DNA from: Halorubrum sodomense
GTDB lineage: Archaea > Halobacteriota > Halobacteria > Halobacteriales > Haloferacaceae
Assembly: GCF_900111935.1 (NCBI RefSeq)
Contig: NZ_FOYN01000003.1
Coordinates: forward strand, 491,800-555,799
Direction of reading: 5' to 3'
Length of the DNA: 64,000 nt
Both the position numbers and the translations under genes were made by a program. The notes under the pieces are model-generated. The model was not told the origin of the DNA. It searched no databases and saw only the letters and a program-made list of their open reading frames with translations. Of this stretch, positions 1-9,573 are shown in pieces (within the stretch, counting starts at the first letter, position 1; every line of letters begins with the position of its first letter).

Positions 1-569
1 ATCCCCGCCGCGAACGTCTCGTCGACCTCGGCGTCGAACAGCGACAGGAGGATGTCCAGGTCGTGGATCATCAGGTCCTCGACCACGCCGTCGGCGGTAT
101 CGCGGTCTATCGGTGGCCCGAGCCGACGGGCGTCGACCGCGAGGACGTTCATCTCCGGAAGAACGTCTCCGAGGGCCCGCACCGCCGGGTTGAACCGCTC
201 GATGTGGCCGACCTGCAGCCGGAGGTCCTTCCGGTCGGCGAGCGAGATCAGCTCCCGGCCGGTCGCAATGTCGTCGACGAACGGCTTCTCGACGAGGACG
301 TGCGTGTCGGCCTCCAGCGCCTCCCGCACGACCGACGCGTGGAACTGCGTGGGCACGACCACCGAGACGGCGTCGACCGCCTGAAGCAGCGTCCCCCGAT
401 TGAGCGCCCGCGTCCCGTGTTTCTCGGCGATCTCTTTCGCCCGGTCCCAGTCGTCATCGGCGACGCCGACCAGGTCGACCGCGGACGACCCGGCGTACAC
501 GCGGGCGTGGTGGGCGCCCATGCTCCCGACGCCGATGACCCCGACGCGGAGCGGCGCGTCGTCAGTCAT
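1..569 (-). CDS. Gfo/Idh/MocA-family sugar dehydrogenase, partial (WlbA/WbpB-like)
   Basis: NAD-dependent sugar oxidoreductase, cut by the left window edge so that only about 189 N-terminal residues are visible. A Rossmann start (VGVIGVGSMGAHHARVY) sits in the first 25 residues, and the family signature HVLVEKPF with its catalytic-site Lys is near residue 95. The ATG at 569 overlaps the end of the aminotransferase gene by 8 nt, so the genes are one operon. Together with the next two genes this matches WlbA/WlbC/WlbB (WbpB/WbpE/WbpD), where the dehydrogenase oxidises UDP-GlcNAcA at C3. That substrate is inferred from gene order; the family alone does not fix it. Confidence 0.85.
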   Translation of the reverse strand, partial: MTDDAPLRVGVIGVGSMGAHHARVYAGSSAVDLVGVADDDWDRAKEIAEKHGTRALNRGTLLQAVDAVSVVVPTQFHASVVREALEADTHVLVEKPFVDDIATGRELISLADRKDLRLQVGHIERFNPAVRALGDVLPEMNVLAVDARRLGPPIDRDTADGVVEDLMIHDLDILLSLFDAEVDETFAAG

Positions 570-1689
570 TCGCGATCACCTCCGCCTCCGGCAGGCCGTA
601 GTGGTCGCGGACGGCGTCGGCGATCCGGGTGAGGTCCTCGTCGGTGACACCGGGGTGGACGGGCACCGACACGACCTCGTCGACGATCCGACTCGCCGTC
701 GGAACCGACGCTTCGTACCCGTCGTACGCCGGCTGGTCCGGGATCAGCGTCGGGTAGTAGACGGCCGTGTCGACGCCGCGATCGTCGAGGTGCTCCCGGA
801 GCGCCGCCCGGTCCGGACAGCGGATCGTGTACTGGTGGTAGACGTGACGGCGCTCCGGCGGCTCCACCGGCAGCGTCAGCGCCGAGACGTTCTCGAGCGC
901 CGCCGAGAGCCCCGCCGCGTTCTCCCGGCGGCGCGCGTTGTACGCCGGGAGCTTCCGGAGCTGTTCCACCCCGATAGCGGCCGAGAGGCTCGTCAGTCGG
1001 AGGTTGTGCCCGACCGAGACGTGATCGTAGCCGCGGTCGGCGGAGTCCGACCGCCCGTGGTTGACGAAGCGGGCGGCGCGCTCGGCGACCCCCTGATCGT
1101 CGGTGACGACCATCCCGCCCTCGCCGGTCGTCATGTTCTTCGTGGGGTAAAACGAGAAGCAGGCGGCGTCACCGAACGTGCCGACGGCCGTCCCGTCGTA
1201 GGCAGCTCCGTGCGCCTGCGCCGCGTCCTCTATCAGCGCGACGTCGTGTTCCTCGGCGATGTCGGTCAGCCGGTCCATCTCCGCGGCCAGCCCGTACAGG
1301 TGGACCGGGAGAATCGCAGCGACGTCGTCGGTCGCCTCGACGACGGCCTCGACCGAATCGGGGTCAAGCGTGTACGTCGCCGGGTCGATGTCGGCGAACA
1401 CCGGGCGCGCGCCGCAGAGCCGGACGGCGTTCGCGCTCGCGACGAACGAGAAGGGCGTGGTGACGACCGCGTCGCCGTCGCCGATCCCGACGGCTTCGAG
1501 CGCGGTCTGTAAGGCGGCGGTCCCGTTGGCGACCGCGACCCCGTGGTCGGCGCCGCAGAAGTCAGCGAACTCGCGTTCGAACTCGCGGACGACGGGGCCG
1601 TCCGCCAGTCGGCCGCTCGCTAACACCTCGCGGACGCGCTCGAGTTCCCGTTCGCCGACGTCGGGGTCGGCGATGGCGACCCGGCTCAT
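562..1689 (-). CDS. DegT/DnrJ/EryC1 aminotransferase (WlbC/WbpE-like)
   Basis: PLP-dependent sugar aminotransferase of 375 residues, normal for the family. Visible marks are the N-terminal GRLADGPVVREFEREFADFCGA-type region, the cofactor motif VALIEDAAQAHGA near residue 160, and the Schiff-base lysine in FSFYPTKNMTTGEGG near residue 190. The ATG at 1689 overlaps the acetyltransferase stop by 4 nt (ATGA), which fixes the start. In the trio it would aminate the 3-keto sugar made by the dehydrogenase, giving a 3-amino uronic acid nucleotide sugar. The family is certain; the exact sugar is an inference from the neighbours. Confidence 0.92.
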   Translation of the reverse strand: MSRVAIADPDVGERELERVREVLASGRLADGPVVREFEREFADFCGADHGVAVANGTAALQTALEAVGIGDGDAVVTTPFSFVASANAVRLCGARPVFADIDPATYTLDPDSVEAVVEATDDVAAILPVHLYGLAAEMDRLTDIAEEHDVALIEDAAQAHGAAYDGTAVGTFGDAACFSFYPTKNMTTGEGGMVVTDDQGVAERAARFVNHGRSDSADRGYDHVSVGHNLRLTSLSAAIGVEQLRKLPAYNARRRENAAGLSAALENVSALTLPVEPPERRHVYHQYTIRCPDRAALREHLDDRGVDTAVYYPTLIPDQPAYDGYEASVPTASRIVDEVVSVPVHPGVTDEDLTRIADAVRDHYGLPEAEVIAND

Positions 1690-2306
1690 GCTATCGTGTT
1701 GGAGTCGTCGAGCGGTTCCGGGAGGTCTCGGTGTTCGGCGGGGACGCCGGCGGCGAGCGTCTCGGGCGGCACGTCGTCGGTGACGACGGCGCCGGCGGCC
1801 ACGAACGCCCGTTCGCCGACGGAGACGCCGGGGAGGACGGTCGCGTTGGCGCCGATAGAGACCGAGTCGGCGAGCGTGGGCCCCTCGAGGTCGCCGTTCC
1901 GGCGGACGGGGTAGGGGTCGTTCGTCAGCACCGCGCCCGGTCCGACGAACACGCCGTCGCCTATCGCGGTCTCCCGGGGGACGTACACGTTCGTCTGGAG
2001 GCTCACGTGCGAGCCGACCGTCGTCTCCCCGTCGATGACGCTGTTGGTGCCGACGAGGACGTCGTCGCCGAGCTCGGTCCCTTCCCTGACGAGGGCGTTG
2101 TGTCCGGTCGTGAACCCGTCTCCCGCACGCACGTCCGCGTACACGATCGAACCGGACCGCACCGTCGCGTCGGCGCCGAGGACGGTCGCACCGGCGCCCT
2201 CGGCGTACTCGTACCCGACCGTCGCGCGCTCGCTCACCGTCGACCGCGGACCGAGTTCGACGTTCGTGACCGTCGAGGCCGGGGCGTTCCGTTGTAAATC
2301 GTCCAT
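1686..2306 (-). CDS. Hexapeptide-repeat sugar N-acetyltransferase (WlbB/WbpD-like)
   Basis: Left-handed beta-helix acyltransferase of 206 residues. Hexapeptide repeats run through most of the protein (SIGANATVLPGVSVGERAF and similar steps) and it ends with the usual AAGVPAEHR loop. WlbB-type enzymes acetylate the 3-amino group of UDP-GlcNAc(3NH2)A. This is the first gene of the operon, followed by the aminotransferase and dehydrogenase. The ATG at 2306 was chosen because the protein then begins just before the first repeats. A TATA-like element lies about 43 nt upstream. An upstream ATG at 2342 lies inside that element and is unlikely. Confidence 0.88.
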   Translation of the reverse strand: MDDLQRNAPASTVTNVELGPRSTVSERATVGYEYAEGAGATVLGADATVRSGSIVYADVRAGDGFTTGHNALVREGTELGDDVLVGTNSVIDGETTVGSHVSLQTNVYVPRETAIGDGVFVGPGAVLTNDPYPVRRNGDLEGPTLADSVSIGANATVLPGVSVGERAFVAAGAVVTDDVPPETLAAGVPAEHRDLPEPLDDSNTIA

Positions 2307-2339
2307 GACTGACTCGTGTGGCGATGCGGCCGGTCCGGT

Positions 2340-2350
2340 CATTGTTATGG
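2340..2350 (-). promoter_or_regulatory. TATA-like element CCATAACAATG, sugar trio
   Basis: On the minus strand this reads CCATAACAATG, about 43 nt before the acetyltransferase ATG. The core CATAACAAT recurs in front of several other genes of the glycan region, usually 33-34 nt before the start. Confidence 0.55.
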
Positions 2351-2595
2351 AGAGGCTTGTCGGGGTACGATCTGCATACTCGGTCGGCCCCGACCGGCGA
2401 CCGAATCCACGCTGAAGCGGGCGAAATCGGGCGAGAGGACCATTCGAAAGGCGCTCGGCGCGGATCTGGATCGACGGCCGGTCCGCCGAGCGGAACGCCG
2501 ACGAGGGCCCGCGTCGACGGAGCCACGGACGCGACCGGGGCAGAATGCCGTGAACCCGACGACGGAGTAAGGAGTGGGCACGCGGCTCACGTCTC

Positions 2596-2658
2596 GCGTT
2601 ACTCGCCTCGCCTCCGGCGTTACTCACCTGTCCCCCGGCGTTACTCGGCTCGCGCCAG
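2596..2658 (+). repeat. Three 21-bp imperfect tandem repeats in intergenic region
   Basis: The 9-mer GCGTTACTC starts at 2596, 2617 and 2638, exactly 21 bp apart, with similar C/T-rich fill between copies. The array sits about 60-120 bp before the promoter of the secreted protein at 2752. A spacing of two helical turns puts the copies on one DNA face, which would suit a multimeric regulator. No binding protein is known. The remaining intergenic DNA (2351-2751) shows no convincing gene. Confidence 0.6.
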
Positions 2659-2718
2659 CGGGGGATCGCTATCGCGCCGCTCCCCCTGTTCGAGCCCGCT
2701 CTCCCGAGGTATGCCCAT

Positions 2719-2728
2719 CGTAACAAAG
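2719..2728 (+). promoter_or_regulatory. TATA-like element CGTAACAAAG
   Basis: CGTAACAAAG begins 33 nt before the ATG at 2752, the spacing expected for a leaderless haloarchaeal transcript. It is a variant of the CATAACAAT element seen at other genes of the region. Confidence 0.55.
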
Positions 2729-2751
2729 TCGACATTCGCGGACACTCACGT

Positions 2752-4536
2752 ATGGAGATAACCGGTATCCACGCGGTGGCTGCGGTGCTGCTCGTCGTCG
2801 GCGGGACCGTCGGTGCCGCGTCCGTCGCGGATCTCGGAGGCGGTGCGTCGGTGACCGTCGATGACACGGAGACGGTGAAGCCGACCACCGGCGACACCGC
2901 CTTCGAGGTGCGGACCACGCTCAACAACAGCGACGCCGCGAACGCGACGCGATCGTACGACCTGGTCGTCGAAGGCGGGAGCGGCTCCGCCGTCACCGTC
3001 GACGAGCGGACGGTGACCCTGTCGGCCGGGGAGACGCGCCGGCTCACCCTCTCGGCCCCGAGGGACGCGCTGAGACCGGGACGGTACAACTTCACGCTGA
3101 GCGACGGCTCGGAGGCGTTGGCGACGGGCAACGTCACCCTCGATCCGCCCGCGTTCGTCCTCTCCGACGCCGGCGCGGGCGAGGTCGTTCGCGGCGATCT
3201 AGGGACCGTCGACGTGACCGTTCGCAACCGCGGCGACTTCCGCGGGCTGCGGAACGTTGATCTTCTCCTCGACCGCGACCGCGACGGCGCGTTCGAGGTC
3301 GGGGAAGCCGTCGCCACGAGGGCGCCGACACTCGGGGCCGGAGCCGACACGACCGTGCGGTTTTCGGTCGGGACCGACGGGCTCGATCCGGGGACCTACG
3401 CGTACCGCATCGAAACGGCAGATGGCGCTCGGGAGGGGGTACTCGTCGTCCTCCGCCCGGCGACGTTCCGCGTCGCGGGAGCGACGATGACCACCGACGC
3501 CGTCAGGGGCGACCGGTTCAACGGGTCGGTGACGCTGACGAACGCGGGCGACGTCCCCGGCACGGAGACGGTCTGGCTCGACGGCCCGGCCGAGTCGTTC
3601 GACTGGAACCGGTCGGTGACGCTCGACGGGAACGAGACGAGGACGTTCGAGTTCGCGGCGGCGACGGCGAACCTCACCCGCGGGAACTACTCGGTCGCCG
3701 TCGCGACGGCGAACGACTCGGCCACGGCGACGCTCCGCGTCCGCGAGAGCTTCTTCAAAGTCGACGACGTCGACGGACCGGAGTCGGCCGACGTGGACGG
3801 CGACGTCGAGTTCACCGCGCGGGTGTCGAACATCGGCGACGCGGCCGGGAACGAGACCGTCGAACACCGCATCGATCTGAACGGCGACGACGACCCGGAG
3901 ACGGTGACCGGGAACCGGACCGTGACCCTCGCTCCGGGCGAGCGGACGACCGTCGAGTTCGTGATTCCCGCCGACAGCGACCGGTTCACCGACGACGACC
4001 TGCTCGGCACGCACGTCTTCGGCGTGTACACCGGAGACACCAACGCGACCAGCGTCGTGGTCGTCCGGGACTACTACTCGGGCGGTGGTGGTGGGTCCGC
4101 CTCGTCGTCGTCATCTTCCTCGTCGAACGACGAGACCGAGACGGTCTCGAAGGACGTGATCACCCAGGAGAAGTACGGGCTCGACTACGACGAGGTCAGC
4201 AGCGAGACGCAGTCGCAGGTCGACGAGATCTACGAGCGGCAGCCGTTCGCGGACGGGCTCGTGATCACCGAGGTCCTGACCCGCGAGGAGATCGCGCGAC
4301 AGGAGTTCGGCCTCGACGTCGAGCGGAACGACGACTTCGATTTCACCTCGATCGACGTCGAGACCCAACAGGAGATCGAGGCCGCCTTCGACGAGCAGTT
4401 CGAGTCCGACGACGGCGACCGGATCGAGTCGTGGGACGAACTGGCCAGGGCGGAGTTCGACAGCGAGTACGAGGCGCTTAACGAGGAGCGAAAAGAGACG
4501 ATCCGCGAGCGGTACCGAGCGCAGTTCGACTCCTGA
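2752..4536 (+). CDS. Secreted CARDB-like protein with C-terminal helical repeats
   Basis: Exported protein of 594 residues. Residues 1-24 form a Sec-type signal (hydrophobic HAVAAVLLVVGGTVGAAS). Residues 40-440 contain four to five Ig-like CARDB-type units with phrases such as VTVRNRGDF, VTLTNAGDVPG and ARVSNIGDAAGN, plus many N-glycosylation sequons. A Gly/Ser linker (about 444-462) leads to an acidic helical tail with three copies of a roughly 35-residue unit resembling LTREEIARQEFGLD...ETQQEIEAAFDEQF. The same unit ends the convergent neighbour at 4586. It is probably a cell-surface or secreted structural protein. Its role is unknown; location in a glycan region suggests envelope work. Confidence 0.85.
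   Translation: MEITGIHAVAAVLLVVGGTVGAASVADLGGGASVTVDDTETVKPTTGDTAFEVRTTLNNSDAANATRSYDLVVEGGSGSAVTVDERTVTLSAGETRRLTLSAPRDALRPGRYNFTLSDGSEALATGNVTLDPPAFVLSDAGAGEVVRGDLGTVDVTVRNRGDFRGLRNVDLLLDRDRDGAFEVGEAVATRAPTLGAGADTTVRFSVGTDGLDPGTYAYRIETADGAREGVLVVLRPATFRVAGATMTTDAVRGDRFNGSVTLTNAGDVPGTETVWLDGPAESFDWNRSVTLDGNETRTFEFAAATANLTRGNYSVAVATANDSATATLRVRESFFKVDDVDGPESADVDGDVEFTARVSNIGDAAGNETVEHRIDLNGDDDPETVTGNRTVTLAPGERTTVEFVIPADSDRFTDDDLLGTHVFGVYTGDTNATSVVVVRDYYSGGGGGSASSSSSSSSNDETETVSKDVITQEKYGLDYDEVSSETQSQVDEIYERQPFADGLVITEVLTREEIARQEFGLDVERNDDFDFTSIDVETQQEIEAAFDEQFESDDGDRIESWDELARAEFDSEYEALNEERKETIRERYRAQFDS
4146..4533 (+). repeat. Three copies of helical C-terminal repeat
   Basis: Three protein repeats start near 4146, 4261 and 4427. 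Each has the pattern hydrophobic-x-(K/R/E)-(Y/F)-G/D-x2-(Y/F)-x-x-(L/V)-S/N-x-E-T, about 10 residues, then (I/L)YxxQF. Two further copies lie at the end of the convergent gene (about 4815-4590, minus strand). Confidence 0.7.
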
Positions 4537-4585
4537 AGCCGCACGTGTTTGCGCCCGTCGCGGGCGTCGAGTCGCCCGCCGACGC

Positions 4586-5785
4586 CTACGGCGGACCGTC
4601 GGGGAACTGGGCGCGATAGAGCGTCGTTATTTTTCCCTTCGTCTCCCCGCTCAGTTCCGAGAAGGGCATCTCGTAGCGCATCCGCGAGAGCTCGTCTTTC
4701 GTGAGCTTCGTCTCGGCGTCCTGCCGGTCGTGGACCGACCGGACGAGCCGAGCAGTCGGCTCGCTCAACTCGTCGAAGGGTATCCCGTACGCGACTCGTG
4801 AGATCTGGTCGAGCGACTGCGTCCCGTTTTCCGGCACCGGTTCCGCGGTGACCGCCGACTCGTCGACGGTCACGTTCAGCTCGTAGGGCCCCGAGCTGTC
4901 CGCTACGTCCGCCACGGCGACGAAGTACCACTCGCTCTCCTCGGCGCTGAACCGGATGGTGGCGGGAGCCCCGCTGCCGACGTACCGCGTCGCGGTGTCG
5001 GTCGGCTCCCCCGCGGGGGCGGTGTCCACGTTCAGCACCGAGACACCGTCCGCCGACTCCCGGTCGACCGTGACGGTGACCGGGACCGTCACCGACCGCG
5101 GCTGCTCGGGCGTCTCGTAGTCGGGGAGCGTGAACGCGTAGTAGTCGACGTCGGCGCCCTCGAGGTCAGCCGAGACCGTCGCGTTGCGTCCCGCGTCGGT
5201 GGCGGTGAGTTCGAGCCGCGTCGCGTTCTCCCGGTCGTCGTTCGGCTCGTCCGGCACGTCGGCGGTCTGCGCTATCTCGAGCGAGAGTTCGAACGTCCCG
5301 GTGGCGCGGACGGTGGTGCTCTCGACTCTGACCGTCGCTCGGCCCGGCGCCTTCGTCGTCGCGTTGAATCGCCCCGTCTCCCCGCTCTGAACGCCGAGAC
5401 CGGCGCTGTCGGGGGCCACACTGCCGTCGGGCATCTCGGCCCGAACCGACGCCGTGTAGACCATCGACGTGTCTGTCGGTTCCTCAAGCGAGAACTCGAT
5501 CGTGGCCCGCTCGCCGGGCTCGATGTCGAACGCGTAGACCGGGAACGCCGACAGGGTCCCGGTCACCGTCTCGCCCGGTTCGATCACCGCGGGACCCCCC
5601 TCGGTCTGGCGCCGGACGTCCCCGGGCGACGCCCGTCCGCGGTCCGGCTCGTCGGCGACCGCCGTTCCGTTACCGGCGTCCGAGACGGGGGCGCTCGCCC
5701 CGTAGACGCCGGCGGCTATCCCGCCCGCTGCGACCAAGCAGACGGCGATCAGTACGACGGTTCGCTCCATGTGTCTCTTGGACAT
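4586..5785 (-). CDS. Secreted PPC-like protein sharing the helical C-terminal repeat
   Basis: Exported protein of 399 residues. An N-terminal signal (RTVVLIAVCLVAAGGIAAGVYGA) is followed by a Thr/Asp-rich stretch and two beta-rich domains. The second begins with the DEPNDDRENATRLEL motif typical of pre-peptidase C-terminal (PPC) domains and continues DVDYYAFTLP. The last 75 residues hold two copies of the helical unit (LDQISRVAYGIPFDELS and LTKDELSRMRYEMPFSELS) also found in the convergent gene at 2752. The start may be ATG 5785 or ATG 5770; the former gives a more basic n-region. The two genes end 49 bp apart. Function is unknown; the shared tail suggests the same partner or location. Confidence 0.82.
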   Translation of the reverse strand: MSKRHMERTVVLIAVCLVAAGGIAAGVYGASAPVSDAGNGTAVADEPDRGRASPGDVRRQTEGGPAVIEPGETVTGTLSAFPVYAFDIEPGERATIEFSLEEPTDTSMVYTASVRAEMPDGSVAPDSAGLGVQSGETGRFNATTKAPGRATVRVESTTVRATGTFELSLEIAQTADVPDEPNDDRENATRLELTATDAGRNATVSADLEGADVDYYAFTLPDYETPEQPRSVTVPVTVTVDRESADGVSVLNVDTAPAGEPTDTATRYVGSGAPATIRFSAEESEWYFVAVADVADSSGPYELNVTVDESAVTAEPVPENGTQSLDQISRVAYGIPFDELSEPTARLVRSVHDRQDAETKLTKDELSRMRYEMPFSELSGETKGKITTLYRAQFPDGPP

Positions 5786-5952
5786 AAGCGGGCGAGCGCG
5801 TGACCGCACCGCCGCATTGTAATTCAGAGAGTAATACGGGTAGGGACGCCGTAGCGCGACCGGTCGGGCGGTACCCGGGTCTCACCCGCCGGGCCGGTCG
5901 AACACGACCCGTCGCACGGATTTGACCGTCGAGCCCGCGGCGAGGACGCCCG

Positions 5953-7170
5953 CTACCGGTCGGGAGCCGACGCGTCCACCGCGGGCGCTTCGTCGGCGAC
6001 CCGGGACACCGCTTCGGGCGGGACGCGCATCACTGATCCGCCGTCGCTCCGCGCGTTGAACGGGTTAACGAACAGTCCGAGTCGCTCGTCGGCGGCGAGG
6101 AACACGTACGCGCTCGCGGTGGGGACCCCCGGAACGCGCTCACCGACCGGCCGGCGGCGGCGGAACGCGGCCAGCTCGTACCACGTCTCGTACGACGACG
6201 ACGAGGAGGCGACCAGCACCCGCGCCGCGTCGCCGCTGCGGTTCCGCCGACCCGCGGGCGCGGTGCTGTCATCGCCGATCTCTGCCGCCGTCGCGACGGC
6301 GACCCAGAGGTCACCGTCGACCGTCAGCGTCGCCGCGTAGTACGCCGACGCGTCCGTACGTCCGACCGTTTCGGGCTCTGCGGGACCGTCGCGGCGCAGC
6401 CGAAGGAGCTCCACGTCCGCCGCGTACGAGCAGTCCATCCCCCACAGCACGGCCGTCGGCGTGAACGCGAGCCCGACCGCCCGCCACCGCTGGCTCCCGC
6501 TCCCGACGCGGACGAACTCGCCGTCGACGAGGCGACCGACCGCGCTCTCGTCGTCGGTGTCGCCCGCCGTCGCCCACAGGGCGTCCCGGTACGGGTCGTG
6601 GAAGACGCCGTGGAAGTGACGGACTTCGGTCGTCTCGACGCGAATCTCCCACGTCCGCCCGTCGTCATCGCTGCGGAGGATCCGAGCCGGGTCGTCCCCG
6701 AGCGTGTACTCCGCGAGGTAAACGTCGCCGCCGTGGAGACAGACCGAGGTCGGGAGCGTGCCCATCGGTCCCGACGAGTCGGGGAGCCGATGGACCGGCG
6801 CCCACGACCGCCCGGAGTCGCCGGAGCGGAACACCCGCCGCCCGACTGTCGCGAGCAGCGTGCCGTCGCGGAGCGGCCAGAGGTTCGTCGTCGTCCACGA
6901 GCCGACGACGGGACGTAAGGCCACCTTCGCGAACCGGCCGTGTCGCAGGCGAAAGGCCGCGTCAAGCCGCCCGTCCCCCGGCGTCGGGAGGGTACCGAGC
7001 GAGACGCCTCCCTCGGACCGCGTCCAGACGCCGACCGTCCGCCCGCGCGTCCAGTAGAGGCGTCCGTCTCTCACCCCGCCGATCCGCGCCTCCGGACCGA
7101 GGTCAAGCGGTTCGCTCCGCATCCCAACGACGCCGCGCTCGGTCGCCCGCTCGAGGTGGCGTCGGGTCAT
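5953..7170 (-). CDS. Asp-box (BNR/sialidase-like) beta-propeller protein
   Basis: Protein of 405 residues with sialidase/BNR Asp-box motifs: RSGDSGRSWAPV near residue 120 and RSDDDGRTWEI near residue 170, plus further blade-like strands. No signal peptide or membrane segment is visible, so it may be cytoplasmic. The sialidase Arg triad cannot be recognised, so hydrolase activity is doubtful. The ATG at 7170 lies 10 nt after the stop of the upstream dehydrogenase gene, making a two-gene operon. Similar fold-only proteins occur in glycan clusters. The ligand is unknown. Confidence 0.7.
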   Translation of the reverse strand: MTRRHLERATERGVVGMRSEPLDLGPEARIGGVRDGRLYWTRGRTVGVWTRSEGGVSLGTLPTPGDGRLDAAFRLRHGRFAKVALRPVVGSWTTTNLWPLRDGTLLATVGRRVFRSGDSGRSWAPVHRLPDSSGPMGTLPTSVCLHGGDVYLAEYTLGDDPARILRSDDDGRTWEIRVETTEVRHFHGVFHDPYRDALWATAGDTDDESAVGRLVDGEFVRVGSGSQRWRAVGLAFTPTAVLWGMDCSYAADVELLRLRRDGPAEPETVGRTDASAYYAATLTVDGDLWVAVATAAEIGDDSTAPAGRRNRSGDAARVLVASSSSSYETWYELAAFRRRRPVGERVPGVPTASAYVFLAADERLGLFVNPFNARSDGGSVMRVPPEAVSRVADEAPAVDASAPDR

Positions 7171-7180
7171 CGGGGACGGG

Positions 7181-8392
7181 TCACCGTTCGGCGGCCGACC
7201 CGTCGTCGGACCCGTCCGCGGGGGTGTCGGCGGCGGACGCCGCGCGGTCGGCCGCGGGACCGAGCCACCCGGTGTCGATCATCGCGACGAGCGGGTTGTC
7301 CTCGATTTCGAGCGGGAGGTCGACTCGCCCGCGCCGTCTGGCCGACTCCCACGCGGCGAAGACCACCTCCGTCGACCGGAGCGCGTCCCGTCCGGACAGT
7401 TCGGGCTCCGACCCCGTCTTCAGCCCCTCGACCGCGTCCGCGATGGCCCGCTCGATGAACACCGGTCGCTTCTGAACCTCGGTCGAGACCAGCGGCAGTC
7501 GCGCCCGCACACCGCGCAGCGCGGCGCCGAGGTATCCCTGGAAACCGAGGCCGTGGAGGTTCTCGCCGTCCGTCTCGACCGACTGCCACGTCCCGCCGTC
7601 GGTCCGGTAGCGGAGCGTCGGTCCGCCGTCGACGCCGAGTTCGATGGCGCCGTCCGTGCCGGCCAACCGGAGGTAACACGCCCCCTCCGGGGCCGACTCG
7701 CCGGTGGTCGCGATCCCCACCGTCCCGTCGGCGTCGCGCCACTGAACGAGCGCCTGCGTGGCGTTCGGCGTCCCGAACCACCGGTTCTCCTCCCGGTAGT
7801 CGACCTGCGCCAGCACCCACTCCACGTCGACGCCGTCGGTGAAGTACCGGGAGAGGTCGACCTGGTGGATCCCGGCGTCGAACAGCGTCTCGTCCGCGAA
7901 CTCGATCCGCGTGAGCGAACCGATCGCGCCGTCGTCGAGGAGCTCCTTGGCCCTCCGGAACGGCGCGCCGAACCGGCGCTGGTGGTTGACGGTGAGCTGG
8001 ACCCGGTTCCGGTCGCAGGTCCGGACCATCGACTTACAGTCGCCCCAGGTGTCGGCCATCGGTTTCTCGCAGTGGATCGCCGAGACGTTCCCGCTCTCGG
8101 CGCAGTCCTCGACGATCGCGGCGTGGATCCCCGGCGGCACGCAGACGCTCACGAGGTCCGGCTCGACCGCGTCGAGCATCGTCTCGTAGTCCTCGTAGAC
8201 GGTTCCCTCGCGCAGGTCGAACTCGCGGGCGAAGGCCCGTCCGTTCTCGAGGACGATGTCCGCGCACGCGACGAGCTCGCAGTCGTCGTTGCTCTCGTAG
8301 GCGCGCCCGTGACGATACCCCATCGCGTATCCGTCTCGGTCGGGGTCGGAGGGGTCGGGGCCCGTGCCGATGACCGCGACGTCGTAGACCAT
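7181..8392 (-). CDS. Gfo/Idh/MocA-family oxidoreductase
   Basis: NAD(P)-dependent sugar-type dehydrogenase of 403 residues. The N-terminal Rossmann motif is unusual: VIGTGPDPSDPDRDGYAMG has an insertion where GxGxxG normally continues. The signature IHCEKPMADTWGD with the catalytic Lys is near residue 120, followed by VNHQRRFGAPF and a DAGIHQVDLSRY segment with a likely catalytic His. The C-terminal 40 residues are acidic and low complexity. It is the first gene of a pair with the Asp-box protein. It differs clearly from the trio dehydrogenase at 1-569. Its substrate is unknown. Confidence 0.87.
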   Translation of the reverse strand: MVYDVAVIGTGPDPSDPDRDGYAMGYRHGRAYESNDDCELVACADIVLENGRAFAREFDLREGTVYEDYETMLDAVEPDLVSVCVPPGIHAAIVEDCAESGNVSAIHCEKPMADTWGDCKSMVRTCDRNRVQLTVNHQRRFGAPFRRAKELLDDGAIGSLTRIEFADETLFDAGIHQVDLSRYFTDGVDVEWVLAQVDYREENRWFGTPNATQALVQWRDADGTVGIATTGESAPEGACYLRLAGTDGAIELGVDGGPTLRYRTDGGTWQSVETDGENLHGLGFQGYLGAALRGVRARLPLVSTEVQKRPVFIERAIADAVEGLKTGSEPELSGRDALRSTEVVFAAWESARRRGRVDLPLEIEDNPLVAMIDTGWLGPAADRAASAADTPADGSDDGSAAER

Positions 8393-8422
8393 TTCGAGCG
8401 GAGAAGGCCACCCCCGACCAAA

Positions 8423-8430
8423 GAGTATAG
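8423..8430 (-). promoter_or_regulatory. TATA-like element CTATACTC
   Basis: CTATACTC on the minus strand begins 38 nt before the ATG at 8392 and is the best promoter candidate for the dehydrogenase/propeller pair. Confidence 0.45.
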
Positions 8431-8527
8431 ACCGCCTACCGCACGCGGTCGAATCGAACCGCCGGGCTGCGGGCCGATTCGACGGGCGACGTTCGAACGA
8501 GCGTCGAGCGGGGGCGGCGGTACGATT

Positions 8528-8541
8528 CCCATAACAATACC
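8528..8541 (+). promoter_or_regulatory. TATA-like element CCCATAACAATACC
   Basis: The core CATAACAAT starts 33 nt before the GTG start at 8563. The same string TAACAATACC recurs before the GT2 gene at 21364. Confidence 0.6.
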
Positions 8542-8562
8542 GCCGCTCTCGGATACCCCGTT

Positions 8563-9573
8563 GTGGCTCCCACTCCCAGCCCCTCGACCGGCGAGACCCG
8601 CCTCGGCGAGGCGAGCGACGGCACCGACGCATCGGGTGACGGACTGCCGTTCGTCTCGGTGGTGATCCCGGTGTACAACGACCCGGCCGGAATCGAGGCG
8701 ACGCTCGACTCGCTCCGGCGACAGACCGCGACCACCGACCGGTACGAGGTGATCGTCGTGGACAACGGGTCGACGGACGAGACGCGCGACGTCGTCCGCG
8801 AGTACCTCGGGGACGAGACGTTCGAGGGGCTGCGGTTGTTCGTCGAGGACGACGTTCAGGGCTCGTACGCCGCCCGGAACGTCGGTATCTCCGCCGCGAC
8901 GGGGTCGGTGGTCGCCTTCGTCGACGCCGACATGGTCGTCGATCCCGGGTGGGTCGAGGCCGTCGCGCGGGAGATGGCCCTGACGGACGCGGCGTACCTC
9001 GCCTGCGACGTGCGGCTGTTCACGACCGGCGACGAAGGGACGGTGGCCAAGTACAACCGGCTGAAGGACCTCAACGTCCAGCGGTTTGTCGAGGAACTCT
9101 CGTTCGGGCCGACCTGTTCGCTGGTCGTCACGCGGACGCTCCTCGAGGACGTCGGCGGGTTCGACGCGCGGCTCCGGTCGAGCGGGGACGTCGAGTTCGG
9201 GAACCGCGTTGCGGCGAGCGGCCGCGAACTCCGATACACCCCAGACATCGTGGTGTATCACCCGACCCGGACGACCCTCGGCGCGCTCCTCCGGAAGTCT
9301 AGGCGGGTCGGACGCGGGAAAACTCAGCTGCGGCGGTACTACCCCGAGCGCTACGGGCCGCCGGTTCTCGCCGCGCTCAACCCCGCCGCCTTCCTCCCGC
9401 CGCGGCCGAGTTTCATGCGCCGGTCGGTGCGCAATTGGGCGGACCTCCCCGTCCGCCAGCAGGTCGCGTTCCTCCTGTTGAGCTACATCGCGTCGCTCGC
9501 GAAGGCGTACGGGCAACTGCTCGAACTCGCGTCGCCGACGGACACGGGCGCCGAGAAACCGTCCAGTCGCTGA
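8563..9573 (+). CDS. GT2-family glycosyltransferase
   Basis: Cytoplasmic-face glycosyltransferase of 336 residues, GT-A fold. Visible marks are FVSVVIPVYNDPAGIEATL near residue 30, VIVVDNGSTDET near 65, AARNVGISAATG near 105, the metal-binding FVDADMVVDPGW near 125, and an acidic SSGDVEFGNRV near 205. Hydrophobic residues near the C-terminus could be a membrane contact. The start is GTG 8563, fixed by the promoter element 33 nt upstream. It probably adds a sugar to the surface glycan or lipid-linked oligosaccharide made by this region. The donor is unknown. Confidence 0.9.
   Translation: MAPTPSPSTGETRLGEASDGTDASGDGLPFVSVVIPVYNDPAGIEATLDSLRRQTATTDRYEVIVVDNGSTDETRDVVREYLGDETFEGLRLFVEDDVQGSYAARNVGISAATGSVVAFVDADMVVDPGWVEAVAREMALTDAAYLACDVRLFTTGDEGTVAKYNRLKDLNVQRFVEELSFGPTCSLVVTRTLLEDVGGFDARLRSSGDVEFGNRVAASGRELRYTPDIVVYHPTRTTLGALLRKSRRVGRGKTQLRRYYPERYGPPVLAALNPAAFLPPRPSFMRRSVRNWADLPVRQQVAFLLLSYIASLAKAYGQLLELASPTDTGAEKPSSR

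Follow-up and report, generated by a model that had tools for sequence, protein, structure and literature searches.

The type I dockerin (PF00404) is a small C-terminal module of two similar helical units found on modular exported proteins, and PGF-CTERM/archaeosortase anchoring uses a C-terminal feature of haloarchaeal surface proteins. The SLH domain, with roughly three mostly helical repeats in tandem at one end of an exported protein, has an arrangement like that of the tail described here, and repeated helical hairpins are a common architecture of protein-binding repeats. How haloarchaeal exported proteins that have neither a lipid nor a PGF-CTERM anchor stay bound to the cell is largely an open question. 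A repeat domain missing from the catalogues, present on many such proteins and exchangeable with dockerins, offers a direct handle on this anchor-less retention, and one of the species that carry it, Haloarcula hispanica (HAH_RS19005), is tractable. An Ig-domain module of the Thermococcales has a putative C-terminal sorting motif (PMC8416519); this is a different thing from the tail.

Two convergent genes ending in one repeat

The window that we analysed, 64,000 nucleotides of Halorubrum sodomense DNA, contains two convergent genes separated by 49 bases, P0001 and P0002, with the following features:

2752..4536, + strand: P0001, exported protein of 594 aa; hydrophobic export segment at the N-terminus, then CARDB/Ig-like domains, a Ser/Gly linker and tail units A-B-C
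4135..4257, + strand: P0001 tail unit 1, type A; ...KYGLDYDEVS.ET..QVDEIYERQPFADG
4267..4410, + strand: P0001 tail unit 2, type B; LTREEIARQEFG(8-residue insertion)..VETQQEIEAAFDEQF
4417..4533, + strand: P0001 tail unit 3, type C, B-like; runs up to the stop codon
4586..5809, - strand: P0002, 407 aa from a GTG; PPC-like beta body, tail units A-B
4715..4828, - strand: P0002 tail unit 1, type A; SLDQISRVAYGIPFDELSEPTARLVRSVHDRQ
4595..4714, - strand: P0002 tail unit 2, type B; LTKDELSRMRYEMPFSELSGETKGKITTLYRAQF; the stop follows after a few residues

For P0002, the ATG at 5785 is a likelier start than the GTG. The two genes lie amid genes of surface-polysaccharide type (window 562-9573), coding for a DegT aminotransferase, a hexapeptide transferase, a Gfo/Idh oxidoreductase and a family 2 glycosyltransferase.

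The initial annotation of this locus had proposed that P0001 carries three copies and P0002 two copies of one repeat, on exported proteins with otherwise unrelated bodies. The repeat is confirmed by a direct BLASTP alignment of the two tails (E = 3e-6) and by a non-circular profile made of 41 repeat pairs, all from other genomes, which matched P0001 and P0002 with E = 2.9e-27 and 3.4e-14 among 602 ORFs of the window. The next best ORF reached only E = 5.8, and nothing fell below E = 3.5 among the reversed ORFs. P0002 was also matched (E = 3.1e-9) by a profile made from P0001 orthologues alone, and a genome search found no carriers in the source genome other than these two proteins. Both proteins have by hydropathy an export-type hydrophobic segment at the N-terminus, in agreement with the proposed export, and the bodies are indeed unrelated: that of P0001 is CARDB (PF07705, E = 1.2e-10, 41.9 bits against a curated cut-off of 22.7), and for P0002 no Pfam family reached E < 0.05. 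The CARDB-like naming of P0001 stood, and the PPC-like naming of P0002 found no PF04151 match in the body; its residues ~179-328 matched secreted haloarchaeal proteins that have no tail, in which the PPC-like pattern is seen by eye only.

Two refinements can be made to that first description: copy 2 of P0001 contains an 8-residue insertion, and the units, of ~35-40 residues each, are of two alternating types. Type A has the consensus T+DEI...KYG.DF.ELS.ET...VQ.IY.RQPF.DG, with RQPF at its end, and type B the consensus TREEIA...YG.DF..LS.ET...I...Y..QF, with AQF at its end. They are usually arranged as AB (P0002), ABC (P0001 type) or, in most other carriers, ABAB. Each unit is a predicted helical hairpin, as the initial annotation had expected: AlphaFold2 pairs two short helices in each unit, both in the P0001 tail (pLDDT 84.6, pTM 0.59) and in one ABAB tail (pLDDT 92.9, pTM 0.85). 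The P0001 tail is strongly acidic, with a net charge of -29 over 132 residues, and the P0002 tail is nearly neutral, with -2 over 78. A near-neutral tail (4595-4828) is unusual for an exported protein of a halophile.

No match worth noting was obtained over the two tails with Pfam and NCBIfam, the tail profile matched no PDB sequence, and neither tail model matched a PDB fold below E 0.001, so that no PDB relative by sequence or fold was convincing. The viral structure library gave no relative, and our literature search found no paper describing such a repeat.

Distribution, conservation and carriers of the tail

In the profile survey, 71 of 391 Halobacteria genomes were matched at E <= 0.01, and by our count 45 of the 391 contain strong matches (E < 1e-9), from about twelve genera in two families; named carriers include Halorubrum, Halobellus, Halogranum, Halobaculum, Haloarcula marismortui and H. 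hispanica. Outside the class Halobacteria the matches were weak only, and in a phylum-wide draw of 393 genomes a single genome from another family, outside those two, was matched, weakly (6e-5). A viral or phage source of the tail was rejected, as none of the phage and viral records contained it. The possibility raised at the outset that the profile would occur throughout cytoplasmic proteins was not borne out, strong matches never being on such proteins. Single similar hairpins occur in extracytoplasmic parts of qNOR (L010, L014, L027), a multicopper oxidase (L108) and ferritin-like proteins (L008, L009); these matches are weak single units and are excluded from the family count.

Nearly all of the 48 carrier ORFs analysed have an export-type N-terminus, as called by a simple hydropathy test rather than a signal-peptide predictor, and in about 43 of them no more than 9 residues separate the last repeat from the C-terminus. 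The bodies are diverse (CARDB, PKD, beta-helix, DUF7282, VWA, cohesin-like and others), and only the L098 carrier has a C-terminal membrane segment or PGF-type anchor. In that protein an ABAB set lies in the middle, apart from the PGF-type C-terminal end. The L081 carrier also counts among those with internal copies, and in L102 the units are inside a loop, one that in L081 runs without interruption. In a VWA protein of H. sinaiiensis the ABAB set comes straight after the signal peptide. The annotated start of this protein (WP_004965201.1; L148:1441-3300) lies within the repeats, at 1633, and is probably misplaced, since there is an in-frame signal peptide upstream. These varied positions, together with the tail-less occurrence of the P0002 body domain in other genomes, indicate that the module can be separated from its carriers and that a sorting signal is unlikely. 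The tail is a real, separable and mobile module on unrelated exported proteins.

P0001 is widespread, with tail-bearing orthologues at 14 other loci among the 15 studied, and glycosyltransferase, DUF1616, sugar aminotransferase or Gfo/Idh genes are often close by (a raw co-occurrence). Among distant P0001 orthologues the tail is 50-58% identical, against 26-39% for the four Ig domains and 27% for the linker, which makes the tail the most strongly constrained part of the protein. Full-length P0002 was found here and in G215 only, among 170 genomes of the family searched, adjoining P0001 both times; because it has a full orthologue in just one other genome, the sharing of a tail by two neighbours is not very informative alone. 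In G363, the P0001 stop codon is directly abutted by a broken P0002 remnant, from which the end with the tail and a large part of the body have been lost (L085:7529-7897). A recent local copying of the tail between P0001 and P0002 was rejected: in a tree of 72 repeat pairs, built on 84 columns only and with many forks open, the P0001 tails group in a single clade (98/99), with the P0002 tails on a long branch outside it.

Dockerins and cohesin-like domains in one subclass

One subclass of carriers has cohesin-like bodies with a GVGAY domain. A type I dockerin gene lies within 12 kb in 11 of its 14 tail loci, where 0.29 were expected, although the Poisson figure overstates the significance and is only indicative, since the loci are phylogenetically related. 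Elsewhere a dockerin was near the tail gene in none of 17 other ABAB loci and in one of 14 P0001-type loci. The dockerin genes, where checked, are upstream on the same strand and mostly abut or overlap. Since the dockerin proteins and the tail protein have the GVGAY domain in common (including in Haloarcula sp. JP-L23, QIO24600/QIO24601), dockerin and tail are alternative C-terminal endings of sibling proteins. In hhalign, the GVGAY domain aligned with 13 haloarchaeal cohesins with 74% probability over 117 columns, against at most 17% over 47 columns for Ig-domain controls. It has no PF00963 match and may be a distant cohesin.

Operons of proteins with GVGAY, PKD and CARDB domains and type I dockerin ends were seen at L033, L069, L071, L076, L097 and L149, several with a malectin-domain protein upstream, and they possibly code for an archaeal cohesin-dockerin assembly. 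A canonical haloarchaeal cohesin protein (L088:3356-4987) has at its end a PGF-type anchor, which the tail proteins lack. It belongs to a pair on the - strand beside a P0001 orthologue (L088:3356-6288), a metallophosphatase with a C-terminal dockerin and the cohesin protein with its long TP-rich linker and anchor. A dockerin partnership for P0001 and P0002 themselves was rejected, because searches of the source genome for dockerins and cohesins gave no match; PF00404 matched neither the two proteins nor any other in that genome.

The tail is thereby a candidate for the part that tethers cohesin-dockerin assemblies in archaea. It is conceivable, though we hold it only tentatively, that it represents a surface-docking module of archaea of a new class, a counterpart of the dockerin, which in some haloarchaea caps a cohesin-like scaffoldin, so that a cellulosome-like assembly would be tethered through the tail and its receptor. 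The operon of the tail-capped scaffoldin would then also provide the dockerin-bearing subunits.

Possible function of the tail

Our working proposal, to which we give an even chance, is that the tail is an autonomous domain of repeated helical hairpins for the non-covalent attachment of haloarchaeal surface proteins. It would dock its carrier onto another component of the envelope, either a glycan or a surface protein, of the S-layer or otherwise. The beta-sandwich body would act as a stalk or hold a binding or catalytic part. The proposal draws on the export of the carriers, the free position of the tail, its conservation above that of the body, its confidently predicted hairpin fold and its exchange with dockerins at the C-termini of sibling proteins; from these we infer binding by the tail, a non-covalent mode of interaction and a ligand on the surface of the cell itself. 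Searches of PDB sequences and folds gave no match to known binding modules. Of the docking, anchoring or sorting roles suggested in the initial annotation, the first two are plausible given the exported carriers and the dockerin-like position, and sorting is made unlikely by the internal and N-terminal copies. The common neighbour gene (sortase-like, receptor or S-layer) that it had envisaged did not emerge, the comparison of neighbour genes at the tail loci finding no universal partner. If the N-terminal export segments are retained in the membrane, the tail would be distal and need not anchor anything.

The main rival to docking is homotypic or heterotypic self-association, in which the tails on copies of one protein, or on two different ones such as P0001 and P0002, would pair and polymerise surface fibres. 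Adjacent tail genes do occur, here, in G215 and in G383, where two lie side by side, and charges of -29 and -2 would permit pairing of the P0001 and P0002 tails; however, most tail-bearing genomes have a single tail gene and full P0002 is present in just 2 of 170 family genomes, so we regard this as rather unlikely. Somewhat harder to sustain is the idea of a structural filler, a stable helical cap suited to high salt and without a specific ligand: it would fit the very acidic P0001 tail and the single hairpins of qNOR, the ferritin-like protein and the multicopper oxidase, but not the nearly neutral P0002 tail or a tail more conserved than its body, and such a cap is not expected to alternate with dockerins. 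It is highly improbable that the tail is a sorting or processing signal of the PGF-CTERM or type IX secretion kind, which a dedicated enzyme would read or remove. Most carriers have it at the extreme C-terminus, yet it is internal in L098, which has its own PGF-type end, in L081 and in L102, and it immediately follows the signal peptide of the H. sinaiiensis VWA protein; moreover it is predicted to be 75-170 residues of well-folded helical repeat, whereas known archaeal sorting signals are short.

The type I dockerin is among the known systems closest to the tail, which resembles it in size, C-terminal location, paired helical units and modular exported carriers, and takes its place in sibling proteins of the cohesin-like operons. 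The tail differs in having no Ca-binding DxNxDG loops and in being present also in genomes without dockerin or cohesin. From SLH it differs in its motif, and the SLH profile is absent from the Pfam matches of P0001 and P0002 up to E = 1. It shares with PGF-CTERM its position on haloarchaeal surface proteins, but without the PGF motif, the hydrophobic helix and the basic end, and the two coexist in L098; neither P0001 nor P0002 has the C-terminal hydrophobic peak or the PGF motif of an archaeosortase substrate. One hairpin superposes on the extracytoplasmic hairpin of the Neisseria qNOR (0.6 A over 28 columns, 36% identity), and the tail profile weakly matches haloarchaeal qNOR; the qNOR hairpin is, however, a single unit within a membrane enzyme (Foldseek E = 6), and the two have at most a local motif in common. 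The tail family is undescribed in the libraries that we searched, and the general kind to which it belongs, modular surface attachment, is a known one.
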